This document shows positions 23,887-60,918 of a DNA stretch of 64,000 nt, piece after piece (positions within the stretch are counted from its first letter, which is position 1; each line of letters begins with the position of its first letter). The notes under the pieces are model-generated. The model did no database searches. It was not told the DNA's origin and saw only the letters and a list, made by a program, of their open reading frames with translations. A program made the translations under genes and the position numbers. Source of the stretch: Spiroplasma litorale (GTDB taxonomy: Bacteria > Bacillota_I > Bacilli_A > Mycoplasmatales > Mycoplasmataceae); NCBI RefSeq assembly GCF_001267155.1, contig NZ_CP012357.1, positions 434,001-498,000 on the forward strand. Direction: 5' to 3'.

Positions 23887-25056
23887 TTATACTAGTTGAT
23901 TTATTTTTTGTAATATTATGTCTGCAACTTCACTTTTTTTTAACTTTTCAAATTCATAGATATCATTTGATTTTGTTAATATTTTAATTTTGTTATATTC
24001 AGAGTCTAACGTATCTACTAAATTAATAACAATCATATCTAATTTTTTTTCGATTAATTTATTTTTTGCTTTATCGATATCAAAATCATTTGCTAATGAA
24101 AAACCTACAAGAAATTGATTTTGTTTAATTTTAGATAACTCTTTTAAAACATCAATTGATTCTTTAAGACTGATTTTATCAAAATTTTTGTTATCTCTTT
24201 TTTCAATTTTTCCTTGATAAACTTCACAAACTTCATAATCAGTTAAAGCAGCGCAACAAATAACAATATCTGAACTATTATAATATTTCATCATTTGTTC
24301 CAACATTTCTACATTTGTATTTGCATATATATTATTTTCATTTTGAGTAATGTTAAGGTCATTATCTCCAAAAACACTAATAATATTATTGCATTTATTA
24401 TAAAGTTTTTTTACAATTTCATAACCCATCTTACCACTAGATGAGTTTGTAATATAACGAACTTTATCTATATAACTTCTAGTTCTACCGAAGTTAATTA
24501 AGATATTCTTATTTTTTAAATTATTATAATCTTTAAAGTATTTATCTACAATTTCCAAAACTTCAATTGGTTCATGGGCTCTACCGATTCCATAATCGCC
24601 GCTTGCTAGTCTACCATATTTAGGTTCGTATCAAAATACATTTGAGAGATTGGACAAGTATTTCTTATTCTTTTCTAATGTTTTGTTAGTATACATATTT
24701 GTATTCATGCTCGGAAACAATAAACAATCAAATTTACATACTGCAAAAAGTAGGGAAGCTAAATCATCACTAATTCCTGATGAAACTTTACCAATATAAT
24801 TATAAGTAGCTGGATAAACAACATTTAAATCACTGTTAAACGCTATTTTAATATGATCTGCATAATGGTGATTATCTTCATAAAATTCTTTATCAAATAT
24901 ATCATCATATGTGTTGATATTGTTAAATTTGACAAATTTATGAGCGTTTTTAGTCATAATTACATTAACTTTATATTTTTTACTTAATAAATCATATAAA
25001 TGATTAGATTTGCTAGCAGCTATTCCCCCAGTTATAATCAAATTTATTACTTTCAT
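23887..25056 (-). CDS. coaBC: CoaBC bifunctional coenzyme A enzyme with altered CoaC motif (389 aa)
   Basis: Phosphopantothenoylcysteine synthase and decarboxylase. The CoaC half (residues 1-165) has ITGGIAASKSNHL, the His in YADHIKIA, PATYNYIGKVSSGISDDLAS and PSMNTNMY. The conserved ACGD motif reads ASGD, with Ser152 replacing the catalytic Cys. The CoaB half has NFGRTRSYIDKVRYITNSSSGKMG and VGFSLAND-like blocks. The start ATG 25056 follows AAGAGGTAACA. TGA-Trp occurs at the Trp before the motif. It is convergent with the PTS gene and divergent from rpsU. Confidence 0.88.
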
Positions 25057-25127
25057 TTGTTACCTCTTTAATAATGCTATTTTATACCTTATTTTACAAA
25101 TATTTTTAAATAATTTATAAAAAAATA

Positions 25128-25156
25128 TAGACATATTCATAATAGTTATTTATAAT
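25128..25156 (+). promoter_or_regulatory. Strong promoter of rpsU
   Basis: TAGACA (25128-25133), a 17-base spacer and TATAAT (25151-25156). One of the closest matches to consensus in the window. Confidence 0.75.
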
Positions 25157-25182
25157 TTAATTGTATTGGAGTTGAATAATAA

Positions 25183-25347
25183 ATGGCAAGTGTTGTTGTA
25201 AAAGAAGGAGAGCCTATTGAGAAAGCTCTTAAGCGTTTCCAAAAAGTAGCTGCTGCAAATAAATCAGAAGCTAGAAAACGTGAATATCACTTAAGTAAAA
25301 AAGAAAAACGCATTTACAAACAAAATCAAAATAAAAAATTTGGATAA
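25183..25347 (+). CDS. rpsU: 30S ribosomal protein S21 (54 aa)
   Basis: Small basic ribosomal protein. The translation begins MASVVVKEGEPIEKALKRFQ and continues with SEARKREYHLSKKEKR, the S21 pattern of acidic N-terminus and Arg/Lys-rich helix. The start ATG 25183 follows TTGGAG. It is short enough to be missed by a 60-residue cutoff. The stop codon lies inside the loop of the terminator hairpin. Confidence 0.93.
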   Translation: MASVVVKEGEPIEKALKRFQKVAAANKSEARKREYHLSKKEKRIYKQNQNKKFG

Positions 25348-25364
25348 TTCCAAATTTTTTATTT
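25334..25364 (+). terminator. Intrinsic terminator overlapping rpsU stop
   Basis: AAAAAATTTGGA and TTCCAAATTTTTT flank TAA, the stop codon itself; T-rich sequence follows. On the minus strand the same stem also ends in a U run. Confidence 0.8.
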
Positions 25365-25469
25365 TTATATAATAAATAGTAAAAGAAAAAAATAAATTTA
25401 TTTAGTACTTTATTAAAAATCTCAACTAATATATAATTAATTTAAGCATTAATTTGAGAGGAAAATAAT

Positions 25470-26069
25470 ATGGGAACTGAAAATCAAATGTTTGATTCAA
25501 ATATTGAATTTAGCGATAGTGTTGGAACTAAAAGTGACACAAAATTAAAAGCTGTAAAAAGACCAGCTATTTTAGCTGATAATTTTAGTAAGGTTGATTT
25601 GATAAAACAATCAAGAGTATTGATGTCAAGTAAAAAAGGTAAGGCAAATATTAATGAATTACCCGCTGGTGTTAGAGTATCAATAAAAAATAAAGAAAGA
25701 ATTGAAAAGATTCTTAATACTAAAGATCATAGTTCAACAGAAGAGATTAGAAAAAAACTTTATATAGAAGGTAAACCTTTAAACAAAAAAAGAGCAGAAG
25801 AATTAAGAGAGGAAAGAATCTCGTTTTTTCAAAAAAACATTAATAAAAGTAAATCAGGTCATCTTGACAAAATGCCAGATTTTTCAAAACCTGTAGCAAT
25901 TAAAAAAACAGCAGTAAAATCTTTAAAAGAACTAAAAATGGAAGAGATTAATAATATTGCAAAATCAGTTAAAAAAACTACAAAGTCTAATACTTCTGCT
26001 AAACCAAAAACTTCAGCAACCACTAAGACAACAAAAAATGCTTCTGCAAAGTCATCAAAATCAAAATAA
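25470..26069 (+). CDS. Unknown protein with basic Lys/Ser/Thr-rich tail (199 aa)
   Basis: The start ATG 25470 follows GAGAGGAAA. The first 120 residues are charged and mostly helical, without a recognised domain. The last 55 residues are low-complexity Lys, Thr, Ser and Ala (KKTTKSNTSAKPKTSATTK and on), similar in composition to histone H1-like or nucleoid-binding tails; DNA or RNA binding is therefore a guess. A TATAAT at 25432-25437 gives a likely promoter. It has its own terminator. Confidence 0.75.
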   Translation: MGTENQMFDSNIEFSDSVGTKSDTKLKAVKRPAILADNFSKVDLIKQSRVLMSSKKGKANINELPAGVRVSIKNKERIEKILNTKDHSSTEEIRKKLYIEGKPLNKKRAEELREERISFFQKNINKSKSGHLDKMPDFSKPVAIKKTAVKSLKELKMEEINNIAKSVKKTTKSNTSAKPKTSATTKTTKNASAKSSKSK

Positions 26070-26077
26070 TTTTTTAT

Positions 26078-26113
26078 AAAAACTCTTTCGAAAAAATGGA
26101 AAGAGTTTTTTTA
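26078..26113 (+). terminator. Intrinsic terminator
   Basis: AAAACTCTTTC and GAAAGAGTTTT arms followed by seven T, after the basic-tailed protein. Confidence 0.85.
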
Positions 26114-26224
26114 TTTAAAAATTATTTCATTTTATAAAATTAATTCCAAAGTTAGTTACTAATATTTTATAAAATTATTCATATGTTATTATTACCGTAG
26201 CCATTAAGGCAATGGAGGAAACTA

Positions 26225-27334
26225 ATGAAAAAATTATTAGGTTTATTAGCGGCTACTGGTTTGATTGCAACAACTAGTGCAACAGTTGTGTCATGTGGGG
26301 AAACAGATAAAACTGATTTATCATCTTTATCAAAAAAAGATTTAGGAGATATTAATGGTGAAGGAGAAAAACCTTCAATTTCAGATATAGTTAGTGCTAT
26401 AAATAGCAAAAACTCAGGATATGGATTAAAATCTTCAGACGTAGAATTTGAAGGAGAAGTAACTGTTTTAAAAGCAAAAATAAAAGCAAAAGCAGACTCT
26501 GAAAAATTCACAGGTAGTGTTGAAGTGAATTATAATTATTCAAAAAAAAGTGAGTCAACACCCGAAGCTACAAAATTATCAGATATAATCAAAAAAACTG
26601 ATTTAGGAACAATTAAAGTAGCTGATGCACAAAAAGCACCTTCACTTGAAGAAGTTTATAATGCAATTAAAACTGCAAACTCAACTACAATTGGTAAATT
26701 AACAAAAGATGATCTTAAATTTAGTGGTGAAGCAAAAACTACTGAAGCAACAGTTACAAATGCAAATGATAAATTTACAGGTTCAATTAAAGTAACTTAT
26801 AAATTAGAAAATAAAGAAGCAGAAGCTACAAAATTATCAGATATAATCAAAAAAACTGATTTAGGAACAATTAAAGTAGCTGATGCACAAAAAGCACCTT
26901 CACTTGAAGAAGTTTATAATGCAATTAAAACTGCAAACTCAACTACAATTGGTAAATTAACAAAAGATGATCTTAAATTTAGTGGTGAAGCAAAAACTAC
27001 TGAAGCAACAGTTACAAATGCAAATGATAAATTTACAGGTTCAATTAAAGTAACTTATAAATTAGAAAATAAAGAAGCAGAAGCTACAAAATTATCAGAT
27101 ATAATCAAAAAAACTGATTTAGGAACAATTAAAGTAGCTGATGCACAAAAAGCACCTTCACTTGAAGAAGTTTATAATGCAATTAAAACTGCAAACTCAA
27201 CTACAATTGGTAAATTAACAAAAGATGATCTTAAATTTAGTGGTGAAGCAAAAACTACTGAAGCAACAGTTACAAATGCAAATAGCAAATTTACAGGTTC
27301 AATTAAAGTAACTTATAAATTAGAAAATAAATAA
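26225..27334 (+). CDS. Repeat lipoprotein, spiralin-like (369 aa)
   Basis: Surface lipoprotein: the signal peptide ends in ATVVSC with Cys24. The mature part is four copies of one module of about 86 residues. The first (residues about 34-113) is diverged. The other three are almost identical and each contains LSDIIKKTDLGTIKV, PSLEEVYNAIKTA, LTKDDLKFSGE and KFTGSIKVTY. The alternation of short strands and a helix resembles spiralin by eye; that assignment is tentative. GGAGG at 26214-26218 precedes the ATG. An inverted repeat CCATT/AATGG (26201-26215) overlaps the ribosome-binding site. A strong terminator follows. Confidence 0.85.
   Translation: MKKLLGLLAATGLIATTSATVVSCGETDKTDLSSLSKKDLGDINGEGEKPSISDIVSAINSKNSGYGLKSSDVEFEGEVTVLKAKIKAKADSEKFTGSVEVNYNYSKKSESTPEATKLSDIIKKTDLGTIKVADAQKAPSLEEVYNAIKTANSTTIGKLTKDDLKFSGEAKTTEATVTNANDKFTGSIKVTYKLENKEAEATKLSDIIKKTDLGTIKVADAQKAPSLEEVYNAIKTANSTTIGKLTKDDLKFSGEAKTTEATVTNANDKFTGSIKVTYKLENKEAEATKLSDIIKKTDLGTIKVADAQKAPSLEEVYNAIKTANSTTIGKLTKDDLKFSGEAKTTEATVTNANSKFTGSIKVTYKLENK
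26564..27334 (+). repeat. Three tandem 258-bp repeats in a lipoprotein gene
   Basis: Unit starts at 26564, 26822 and 27080, an exact period of 258 bases (86 codons); the last unit is cut by the stop codon. Comparing by eye, units 1 and 2 are identical and unit 3 differs at one place (AATGAT to AATAGC, near 27281). Such identity means recent duplication or ongoing conversion. Confidence 0.95.
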
Positions 27335-27342
27335 TTAATAAC

Positions 27343-27377
27343 AAAATCTGCAACTAAATTAATTGCAGATTTTTTTT
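27343..27377 (+). terminator. Intrinsic terminator
   Basis: AAAATCTGCAA (27343-27353) and TTGCAGATTTT (27363-27373) followed by a T run. Confidence 0.85.
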
Positions 27378-27409
27378 GTACCTAATTTAGTTTTCGTAGT
27401 TCAAAGTAT

Positions 27410-27440
27410 TATAATTAATTTATAAGTTATTAACTTATAA
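27410..27440 (+). promoter_or_regulatory. -10 box and palindrome upstream of aldo/keto reductase
   Basis: TATAAT lies at 27410-27415. Right after it, TTATAAGTT and AACTTATAA flank ATT, making a perfect 21-base palindrome at 27420-27440, ending just before the AAGGAGG ribosome-binding site. It could be an operator over the transcription start, or an mRNA hairpin. Confidence 0.55.
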
Positions 27441-27451
27441 AGGAGGATTGT

Positions 27452-28276
27452 ATGATTAATATTTTAAATGAAAAATATATTATGAATAATAATTTGGAAA
27501 TACCAAAAGTTGGTTTAGGAACTTATAAACTAACTAACGAACTAGAAGGAGTTGAATTAATAAAAGCTGCAATAACAGCAGGTTATAGACTCATTGATAC
27601 TGCAAAAGTATATGAAAATCATAAAATTATTGCAAGAGCAATTAAAGAATGTGATGTAAAAAGAAAAGATTTATTTATAACTTCAAAAATATGAAATAAA
27701 GATCATAAATATGAGGATGCAAAATTAGCTATAGATACAATTTTAAATGAGCTTGAATTAGACTATATTGATTTGATATTAGTTCATTGACCTACAAAGT
27801 ATAGAAATGAATGTTATAAGGCTTTAGAAGAAGCAGTTGAAGAAGGGAAAGTTAAATCTATAGGTGTTAGTAATTATCAAAAGCATCATATTGAAGAATT
27901 AATTTCCATTTGTAAAATAAAACCAGTTATTAATCAAATAGAACTACATCCAGCTTTAAGGAATCAAGAAGTAGTAAATACATGTAAAAAGCATAATATA
28001 TTGGTTGAATCATGAGGTACTATGATAAGAGGTAAATGTTTTGAAATCGAACAAATAAAAAAACTTGCATTAAAGTATAACAAAAGCGAACCACAAATTT
28101 GCTTAAGATGAGCTTATCAAAATGGTTATGTAATAATACCTAAAACTTCTAAACCTTCAAGAGTTGTAGAAAATACAATGATTTATGATTTTCAGTTAAA
28201 CGATGAAGATATTGATCTTATAAATAGTATTAATGAGTTTAGAGATGGTCCAGATCCAGATAACTTTAATTTTTAA
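27452..28276 (+). CDS. Aldo/keto reductase (274 aa)
   Basis: NADPH-dependent carbonyl reductase of the AKR family. The catalytic tetrad is intact: Asp49 and Tyr54 in LIDTAKVYEN, Lys79 in ITSKIW and His112 in LVHWP. The family signature GVSNYQKHHIEEL lies near residues 139-151, with NQIELHPALRNQE and IIPKTSKPSR later. Length is typical. The start ATG 27452 follows AAAGGAGG. Trp is encoded by TGA throughout. It is a single gene behind its own promoter and palindrome. Confidence 0.93.
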
Positions 28277-28316
28277 TATTTCTTTAGATATTATATAATA
28301 ATAGTGGAGGGAAAAA

Positions 28317-28751
28317 ATGAAAAAAATATTAGGATTATTAGGAACAGTTGGCATTATATCAACAACTACATCAAGCATTATTTCGTGTGGTAGCGATGAT
28401 GTTGAAGGATATAAAACTACTGAAAATAAAGTATATACAAATAAAAATGACCTTAACAGTTTAGAAGATCAAATCTCAGTTTTTTTTATTATTGGTAATA
28501 ATAATTTTACAGATAAAGAATATGTATTTGAGGTAAAGGCAGAAAAAGAAAATGTTGAAGTAAATTATTTTAAACTTAAAAATCTATCAAAAAGATCAAA
28601 TGATTATAGAATCTATTCAGCAGATTTGGTTATAGAAGTCTTAGAGAGCAATCAAAAACCAAGCAAAAACGATAAATTTAATATTAAGTTTTGTGTTAAA
28701 GATAGTACAAATTACTTCGGTAACTTTGAACTAGTTTTTACAGGCGAATAG
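28317..28751 (+). CDS. Small lipoprotein, paralogue 1 (144 aa)
   Basis: The signal peptide ends in SSIISC with Cys24. The 120-residue mature domain is beta-rich by pattern. It shares an arrangement with the next gene: YKTTENKVYTNKNDL here against YKVNVYQDKDDF, then VFFIIGNNNF against FMIIVGNDYY. Function unknown. ATG 28317 follows GTGGAGGG. Confidence 0.82.
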   Translation: MKKILGLLGTVGIISTTTSSIISCGSDDVEGYKTTENKVYTNKNDLNSLEDQISVFFIIGNNNFTDKEYVFEVKAEKENVEVNYFKLKNLSKRSNDYRIYSADLVIEVLESNQKPSKNDKFNIKFCVKDSTNYFGNFELVFTGE

Positions 28752-28761
28752 GGGGATAATG

Positions 28762-29217
28762 ATGAAAAAAATTATAGGTTTATTAGCAACTACTAGTTTA
28801 ATAGCTTCAACTACTACAGCTGTTGTTTCTTGTGGTGATGAAGAATCTGGATTTACAACTTATAAAGTTAACGTATACCAAGATAAAGATGATTTCATAG
28901 GAAAAACTGATAAAATTAATTTTATGATTATAGTTGGAAATGACTATTATGCAAATAGCGAACAAGAATTTAAATTAATGTTTCAAGGTTCGGTAAAAGG
29001 TGATGATAATTGAGTGAATTATTCAATGAATCCGTTTGTATCAAGTAAAATTTCAAAAAAAGATGATAACAATAGGATTTACATGGGTCAAATATATTTT
29101 AATCCAAATCCTTCTGAAGATGATAAACCAGAACAATATCAAAAATATAAAGTAAGTTTTAGCGTAGAAAATTCATATGAACTTGATTCATTTCAATTTA
29201 ATTACAAAGAAAAATAA
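28762..29217 (+). CDS. Small lipoprotein, paralogue 2 (151 aa)
   Basis: The signal peptide ends in TAVVSC with Cys24 when counted from ATG 28762. That start is preferred to ATG 28759 because it has the better spacing from the GGGGG ribosome-binding site. It is a diverged tandem paralogue of the preceding lipoprotein, separated by 10 bases and so co-transcribed. TGA 29011-29013 is Trp. No recognised domain. Confidence 0.82.
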
Positions 29218-29285
29218 GATATTTTAAATTGACATCTAGATTAAGAGATACCTATAACGGTTAGACTTATTTTAGGTGTTTTTAT

Positions 29286-29316
29286 TTGTAAAAGAGCCCT
29301 TAAAATATGATATAAT
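29286..29316 (+). promoter_or_regulatory. Extended -10 promoter
   Basis: TGATATAAT at 29308-29316 is an extended -10 box. TTGTAA at 29286-29291 is a possible -35 with a 19-base spacer, slightly long. It serves the gene at 29346. Confidence 0.6.
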
Positions 29317-29345
29317 ATATAAGTTATTTTATTAAGGAGAAATTT

Positions 29346-29729
29346 ATGAATAGTGGGAAATTAATTATTTTATCTTCATCTGCGTTTATTGCACTTGTTG
29401 GTTTTATTGAACTTCTAATCACATTATTTTTAGGCGGTAAATTATCTGTTGTAATTCCATTGGTAATTGGTGGATTATTAATTATTACTGCTGCTATGGT
29501 AAATATATTATTCTGTTTTAGACAAGTGGTAAAAATTAAAGCATCTTTAATTTTATCATTTGTTTATACAATAGTAGTATTAATTTTATTTATCACATAT
29601 CCATTGGTTGTTGATTTTTCAATGAATACAATTTATGTTTATAGTACAATTCTAGTATTCACAATTATATTCTTTACAGTTTTAGTTATTACTAACTTTA
29701 GTGAAAGAATTAAAGGGTTAGAATATTAG
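29346..29729 (+). CDS. Four-helix membrane protein, unknown (127 aa)
   Basis: The start ATG 29346 follows TAAGGAGAAA. Four hydrophobic helices (about residues 7-30, 36-58, 68-88 and 95-118), short loops and no motif recognised. Single-gene transcript: its own promoter upstream and a clean terminator 3 bases after the stop. Confidence 0.75.
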   Translation: MNSGKLIILSSSAFIALVGFIELLITLFLGGKLSVVIPLVIGGLLIITAAMVNILFCFRQVVKIKASLILSFVYTIVVLILFITYPLVVDFSMNTIYVYSTILVFTIIFFTVLVITNFSERIKGLEY

Positions 29730-35011: not shown

Positions 35012-35847
35012 ATAAGTGACAACTTTGCATATATAAATTCACTGTTGTATACAATAAAAAAAATTTGAGCAACGAAATAACAATAAGAAAACTTTGCAAA
35101 ATAAGAAAACTAGGTAAATCAACTTATTATGATTGAATTAAAAATAAAAAACCAAAGTTTAAACATATAGATTATGAATTACTATCAAATATTGAGAAAA
35201 GTTTTATTGATTCTGGGAAAACATATGGTTCAAGAAGATTAGTGATTGATTTAAATAATATATGCTCTCATAAAAAAATAAGAAGATATATGATTTTTTC
35301 AAATTTTAAAGTAAATAATTACAAAAACCCAAAGAAAACAACAAATCACATAGAAAAAGTTGGTAAATATGAGAAATTAATAAAAACAAACGCAGATTTG
35401 AAAAAATTTGGCGATGTTTTTAGTGTTGACATAACAGAAAAAGTTATTAATAAATCAAGACTTTACACTTGTGGTTTTTATAATATTAAGCATAAAAAAA
35501 TTTATGGATTAATTACAAAGACATCAAAAGGTATATCACTTGTTGTTGAATCATTTTTAAAAATGGTTGATGAGCTTGGAGTTTTTAAACCAAATAGCGT
35601 TATTCACTCTGATAATGGTTCAGAGTTTAAATCCTATACATATAAATTAATGCTGATGAATTTTGACTTAAATATAAGCATGTCTAGAGTTGGTAGATCA
35701 ACTGATAATGGTTATATAGAAGGCTTTTGAAGCGTATTAAAAAGAGAAGCTATAATAGAGAATAAAAAATATAAATCAATTGAAGAATATGTATATAATT
35801 TTAATTTATACTCAAAATTTTATAATGAAAGGAGAATAAAGTTATAA
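35008..35847 (+). pseudogene. IS3-family transposase OrfB, catalytic core intact
   Basis: This frame is reached by a -1 shift at the A8G run. It contains LCKIRKLGKSTYYDW and then the DDE core: Asp at 35428-35430 (SVDITEK), Asp at 35611-35613 (HSDNGSEF) and Glu at 35719-35721 (GYIEGFW), giving D-35-E spacing as in IS3. The end FYNERRIKL at 35847 is about 25-30 residues short of typical OrfB. With OrfA broken, the frameshift fusion could not be made. The core frame itself has no stop other than TGA-Trp. Confidence 0.75.
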
Positions 35848-59235: not shown

Positions 59236-59254
59236 TTAATAAGGAGATAAAATT

Positions 59255-60595
<1,341 letters not shown>

Positions 60596-60607
60596 GGAGT
60601 TAAAATT

Positions 60608-60918
60608 ATGTTTAAAGTAAAATTTGCAGATATTGGAGAAGGTTTAACCGAAGGAACTGTTACAGAAATACATGTAAAAAAAGGTGATAATGTTAAAAGT
60701 GGAGACCCATTATTTAATGTTGAAACTGATAAAGTTAATTCAGACATTTTTGCACCAACTGATGGTAAGATATCAAAAATCTTGATATCACAAGGTCAAG
60801 AAATAAAAGTTGGTGATGTTGTAATAGAAATTGATGATGGAAAAGATTTAAAAGATACTAAAAGTGAGCCGATTGAAGAAAATGCTTCAGTTGTTGGGTC
60901 AACTCCAGTTTCAAATGA
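60608..60918 (+). repeat. Lipoyl-domain duplication, copy in pdhD
   Basis: Partner of 59255-59565. Confidence 0.95.

Follow-up and report, generated by a model that had tools for sequence, protein, structure and literature searches.

The window analysed here, 64,000 nucleotides of the Spiroplasma litorale chromosome (NZ_CP012357.1, positions 434,001 to 498,000), carries a gene (26225..27334, plus strand) for a predicted surface lipoprotein of 369 amino acids in which one diverged module is followed by three nearly identical tandem modules encoded by in-frame 258-bp repeats. We read this protein as a lipid-anchored, recently expanded module array whose length can be changed by recombination or slippage, and put the probability of that reading at about two in three; its directly observed part comprises the anatomy of the protein, the identity of the copies, the wide module family, the repeated and independent formation of arrays and a change of stalk length in an orthologous relative. 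The repeat alone is ordinary and its context is more useful: the module connects lipoproteins of Spiroplasma with spiralin-type domains, the stalks of GH18 chitinases and Vmp-like proteins of phytoplasmas.

The open reading frame (369 codons plus stop) contains no TGA and translates identically under codes 4 and 11; other open reading frames in the window read TGA as a sense codon, as in Spiroplasma. A ribosome-binding site read directly from the DNA, GGAGG at 26214..26218 (plus strand), has a form common to two downstream lipoprotein genes, and the three gene starts align (repeat family D3). The signal peptide and its lipobox ATVVSC (26225..26296, plus strand; residues 1–24) were recognized by the Mollicute lipoprotein model NF038029 (LP_plasma) with 34.7 bits, above its cut-off of 24. 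Cys24 is accordingly the predicted lipidated residue and a surface location is probable, and a preliminary description of this DNA as encoding a surface lipoprotein stands as a prediction. The membrane-proximal module (residues 30–105; 26312..26539, plus strand) scores 95 bits with the module Hidden Markov Model (HMM) and shares 37% amino acid identity with the repeat unit, in agreement with its earlier characterization as diverged; its nearest relative, at 64% identity, lies in another congener. The protein ends in ...IKVTYKLENK without a hydrophobic segment, and the stop codon lies immediately 3′ of unit 3, with no head domain beyond the array. With its anchor at the N-terminus and its third repeat at the C-terminal end, the protein should present the young repeats outermost. 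A probable transcription terminator, read directly as an inverted repeat (I6) followed by a T run, occupies 27343..27379 on the plus strand; a terminator scan places this inverted repeat on the minus strand.

Tandem Repeats Finder (TRF) reports a single array at 26564–27331 (period 258, 3.0 copies, 99% match, score 1515), the sole long-period array that it finds in the window. Together with the repeat finder, which sets the unit bounds at 26564–26821, 26822–27079 and 27080–27337, and a base-by-base comparison, this defines plus-strand units of 86 codons: unit 1 (26564..26821), unit 2 (26822..27079), identical to unit 1 at 258 of 258 nucleotides, and unit 3 (27080..27331), whose sole difference before the stop is GAT to AGC at unit positions 205–207, replacing Asp by Ser. 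The three near-identical 258-bp repeats of the preliminary description are thus real, and so is its account of two identical units and a third differing at one spot, with the limit that in unit 3 a stop also replaces the last two codons; its span of 26564–27334 starts correctly, whereas its end is that of the stop codon and the third unit proper ends at 27331. A 20-nucleotide probe from the unit occurs three times in the window against a mean of 0.03 in shuffled sequence. Gene conversion from a paralog was considered as the source of the GAT-to-AGC change and is not claimed, a single multi-base mutation being equally possible.

Within the same genome, the paralog regions examined held no other array of this kind. 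Downstream of the gene lies an aldo/keto-reductase-like gene (27452..28276, plus strand), a conserved neighbour that serves for synteny; at the syntenic site upstream of it, two relatives carry lipoproteins of other content, so that, of the species compared, only the window's lineage has this array. The reductase-like gene is followed in the window by two small paralogous lipoproteins (28317–28751 and 28759–29217), and a similar pair follows it in another genome (G019, locus L110), which points to a lipoprotein cluster with changing content.

The copy number of three is known for this species from a single assembly, and 258-bp repeats exceed many short reads, so that the true number of units could in principle be other than three. 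We consider such an artefact very unlikely: the genome is a single contig of 1,225,519 bp, 99.5% complete, and at least two units must exist, since unit 3 can be told from the others and the array is bordered by unique sequence at both its first and its last unit. If the substitution rates of S. poulsonii apply (6.4e-6 to 1.8e-5 per site and year; PMC8208695), the lack of any difference between the first two units places the most recent copying within roughly the last 300–900 years, a figure that is only indicative. A single recent triplication without further variation is possible.

The repeat unit belongs to a family of alpha/beta modules of about 76–86 amino acids. An HMM built from the window's modules detects copies of about 76 residues in numerous lipoproteins, both in this genome and in related ones, and a fixed profile (A1, 23 sequences), used for all distribution counts, matches at 27 places in the genome itself, in 19 of 20 congeneric genomes, in 58 of the 148 sampled genomes of the order (Mycoplasmatales) and in 36 of 395 sampled for the class. 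Outside the order, its matches are limited to seven genomes of one genus (g158). Six of these contain 8–24 SVM signal sequences, which are typical of phytoplasmas; on that basis we treat the g158 genomes as phytoplasmas. Their matching proteins begin with a signal peptide, have between one and three modules and in most cases carry a transmembrane segment at the C-terminus, the layout described for Vmp proteins; the module profile matches these Vmp-like proteins with E values down to 1.8e-27, reversed sequences giving none. A search of plasmids and phages with the unit produced a match in S. kunkelii only. The module family, unnamed by Pfam or NCBIfam in this protein, recurs across Mollicute surface proteins. 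Several database matches were set aside: Pfam Asp_decarbox and Colicin_Ia, for which no single stretch passes, and NCBIfam TraC (PRK13848; 46 bits against a cut-off of 127) reflect chance similarity summed over identical repeats, and a PDB sequence search returned only chance matches to calmodulin.

The nearest named family is that of spiralin. The Pfam Spiralin domain (PF05215, gathering score 25 bits) does not match the 369-residue protein at E values up to 0.1; it does match modules of a sister type in proteins of this sort, including the sister-type arrays of genomes G008 and G017, and window-type and PF05215-type modules are mixed within the same paralogous proteins. Aligning profiles of the two module types (A1 and A2) with hhalign gave a probability of 95.6% (E 1.3e-8, 76 columns), compared with at best 11.8% in 40 column-shuffled controls. 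Given this alignment and the lack of a PF05215 match, the unit is best called a distant, profile-level relative of the Spiralin domain rather than a member by Pfam's own test. The spiralin lipoprotein model NF038030 (cut-off 140 bits) had no match above cut-off in any of the 20 genomes of the genus, and the matches that it did give lie mostly in the N-terminal region that holds the signal peptide.

AlphaFold2 (AF2), given a single unit and the three window sequences, predicts a compact beta-alpha-beta-beta-beta module (strand, helix, three strands) with a pLDDT of 84.8 and a pTM of 0.75; the full-length protein, modelled without an alignment, reaches a pLDDT of 35, too low to support a rod shape. 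Foldseek with the module model found nothing at E ≤ 0.001, and the fold relatives proposed by VIA-align are too weak for a fold relation to be claimed, the best being the ribosomal L9 C-terminal domain (Z 6.5), followed by the Unique domains of SRR adhesins (about 5) and Rib domains (3–4). With no significant Foldseek match and middling VIA-align scores, we assign no fold.

Adjacent modules in this family are usually diverged, with a median identity of 29% over 118 adjacent pairs. Near-identical arrays nevertheless arose repeatedly, in about ten species: 3×258 bp in G008, 7×228 and 3×228 bp in G006, 2×252 bp in G005, 6×234 bp in G141, about 16×228 bp on the S. kunkelii CR2-3x plasmid, and further arrays in others, every period being a multiple of 3 and in frame. 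Of 187 modules, 91 have their closest relative within their own gene, where 4.5 would be expected. One G006 array (L050:2418–4682) encodes a 755-residue lipoprotein in which two unit types alternate as A/B/A/B, a dimeric higher-order repeat whose alternation implies that a two-unit block was duplicated. On the S. kunkelii plasmid (NZ_CP012424.1; L099:1067–4684), about 16 modules of 228 bp lie in one lipoprotein, and linked variants turn up in copies that are not neighbours. Both patterns indicate recombination between copies. In another genome, a frame at L100 (G098:C1:487500–494500) is open for about 1,680 amino acids and contains some 22 diverged modules, partly as 438-bp pairs.

These arrays bear on whether the window's repeats are simply a neutral recent tandem duplication whose copy number has no selected role. 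Several arrays looked rich in amino acid changes, but the count pooled over related arrays (137 synonymous and 227 nonsynonymous codon changes, 62% nonsynonymous against 71.5% expected) shows no positive selection between copies; such within-array changes and the zero synonymous differences in the window, which show youth only, fit neutrality. Repeated in-frame arrays in about ten species, on the other hand, are more than one accident would suggest, though a conserved frame needs only purifying selection; we regard a purely neutral origin as rather unlikely.

Evidence for a change in array length comes from chitinases. In several congeners, modules lie between the lipid anchor and the GH18 chitinase domain of a lipoprotein, in 0, 1, 3 or 7 copies. 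The G014 chitinase has three modules that are 92–96% identical to one another in nucleotide sequence; the syntenic G002 chitinase has one, about 80% identical to each of G014's three, while the two GH18 heads share 91% amino acid identity. Synteny is anchored by what we read as an oligopeptidase-F-like gene adjoining the G014 chitinase. One versus three modules in a syntenic chitinase means that module number changes over evolution, and since the G014 copies resemble one another more than they resemble the G002 module, lengthening from one to three in G014 is favoured over shortening in the G002 line. The pair also offers a concrete case for measuring length variation. In the chitinases of other species, the window's own included, a proline-rich linker replaces the module stalk; chitinase lipoproteins with such linkers, for example (PTTPEN)n and (PTEPEQ)n, were seen at L173, L174 and L176 (G019, G005 and G000). 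This interchange of modules and proline-rich linker between anchor and GH18 domain makes it likely that the module serves as a spacer in the chitinase proteins.

The same observations weigh on the idea that the repeats are themselves adhesive or lectin-like, extra copies raising avidity for insect glycoproteins and length being secondary. Spiralin, to whose domain the module is distantly related by the hhalign comparison above, acts as a lectin (PMC4804543), the VmpA repeats of a phytoplasma promote adhesion to insect cells (PMC7135369), and the array closes the window protein as its only exposed domain. Elsewhere, however, the same module looks like a spacer between anchor and chitinase in varying copy number, and a proline-rich linker can stand in for it. 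We hold this idea tentatively, at a little below even odds.

In the reading we prefer, that of a resizable lipid-anchored array, the N-terminal lipidated cysteine would tether the protein, with one old module followed by three young, spiralin-related copies that probably stem from a recent in-frame tandem duplication. The identical 258-bp blocks could then support unequal recombination or slippage, which would keep the copies alike; RecA would be available, recA being full length in this genome (494 bits). The array would form an extracellular stalk or brush, multivalent and variable in length, in which identical folded modules follow one another, its copy number setting the reach and the number of identical surfaces for binding host (arthropod) material or for shielding the cell. 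There is no head here, so the stalk role of the chitinase relatives may not transfer. In S. poulsonii, adhesin-related genes and lipoproteins are among the genes that change within years (PMC8208695). A broader proposal, which we rate as possible but short of probable, is that the module is a common Mollicute surface block, used in spiroplasma and plasmid lipoproteins, chitinase stalks and phytoplasma Vmp-like proteins, whose arrays are repeatedly and rapidly resized, so adjusting reach and valency where these cells meet arthropods; the window protein would then be a headless, all-stalk form.

The preliminary description had proposed that recombination may change the copy number, a route to antigenic or size variation. 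This is partly supported: the youth of the array, the full-length recA and, in related arrays, length differences between species and recombination patterns favour a possible change in size, whereas antigenic variation lacks support and immune escape of this kind seems very unlikely. A surface location and unstable repeats do resemble the MBA lipoprotein of Ureaplasma. The three modules, however, are all but identical in sequence, and adding or losing a copy would therefore alter length and valency and leave epitopes unchanged; the congeners come mostly from arthropods, among them insects, and from plants, hosts without antibodies; and the pooled codon changes given above contain no excess of amino acid changes. 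No MBA-like pair of long inverted repeats was noticed flanking the gene, the inverted repeats in 25000–29500 being imperfect and A+T-rich only. The array is better understood in terms of adhesion, length or shielding than of antigenic escape.

Other features of the window involve repetition or mobility. The lipoyl domains at the starts of the pyruvate dehydrogenase E2 and E3 genes (59248–59545 and 60601–60898) are nearly identical in DNA, with exact blocks of 134, 89 and 44 nucleotides, a similarity that suggests a recent duplication or gene conversion between the neighbouring genes. An (AAT)14.7 tract at 59585–59628, encoding poly-Asn in the E2 linker, is a possible slippage site, and an IS3-like transposase ORF lies at 35065–35847.

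Among known systems, spiralin and PF05215 resemble the window's modules in size, lipoprotein setting and overall profile, but the Pfam model does not match this protein and no spiralin of the genus exceeds the NF038030 cut-off. The ScARP/SARP1 proteins are likewise spiroplasma surface proteins with repeats tied to adhesion, those of S. citri ScARP binding leafhopper cells (PMC3485318); sarpin repeats, however, measure 39–42 amino acids and precede a C-terminal transmembrane segment, whereas the window unit has 86 and the 369-residue protein lacks the C-terminal transmembrane anchor by which both the ScARP/SARP and Vmp groups are recognized. Ureaplasma MBA, also a Mollicute lipoprotein, carries tandem repeats at its C-terminus and changes their number under antibody (PMC3511179); it differs in its repeat units (for example 12 bp) and in its recombinase-linked phase-variation locus with inverted repeats.

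The phytoplasma adhesins VmpA and VmpB are also close: they are Mollicute surface proteins with one to four near-identical tandem repeats of 234 bp (about 78 amino acids) whose number varies among isolates, and the VmpA repeats bind insect cells (PMC7135369). The module HMM matches proteins with a signal peptide, modules and a C-terminal transmembrane segment in the presumed phytoplasmas; the Vmps are anchored by that C-terminal segment, the window protein by an N-terminal lipid. The periscope proteins (SasG, Rib and Sgo_0707) share highly identical folded tandem domains encoded by long DNA repeats that permit length change (PMC8201768, PMC9704523), and the window protein matches them in having highly identical tandem domains (units 1 and 2 agree at 258 of 258 nucleotides), each of them predicted to fold, in a protein with a lipoprotein signal. 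It departs from them in being headless, the stop codon taking the place of a distal functional domain, and in its N-terminal lipid anchor, although its chitinase relatives do carry a head; periscope length variation occurs between strains, whereas the change seen here is across species only and in a chitinase relative. Should array length be adjusted in nature, wall-less bacteria associated with arthropods would share a length-variation trick with the surface proteins of streptococci and staphylococci. On our best reading, the window protein is a recent addition to an already known class of surface proteins with variable length, close to the Vmp repeats and the periscope proteins.
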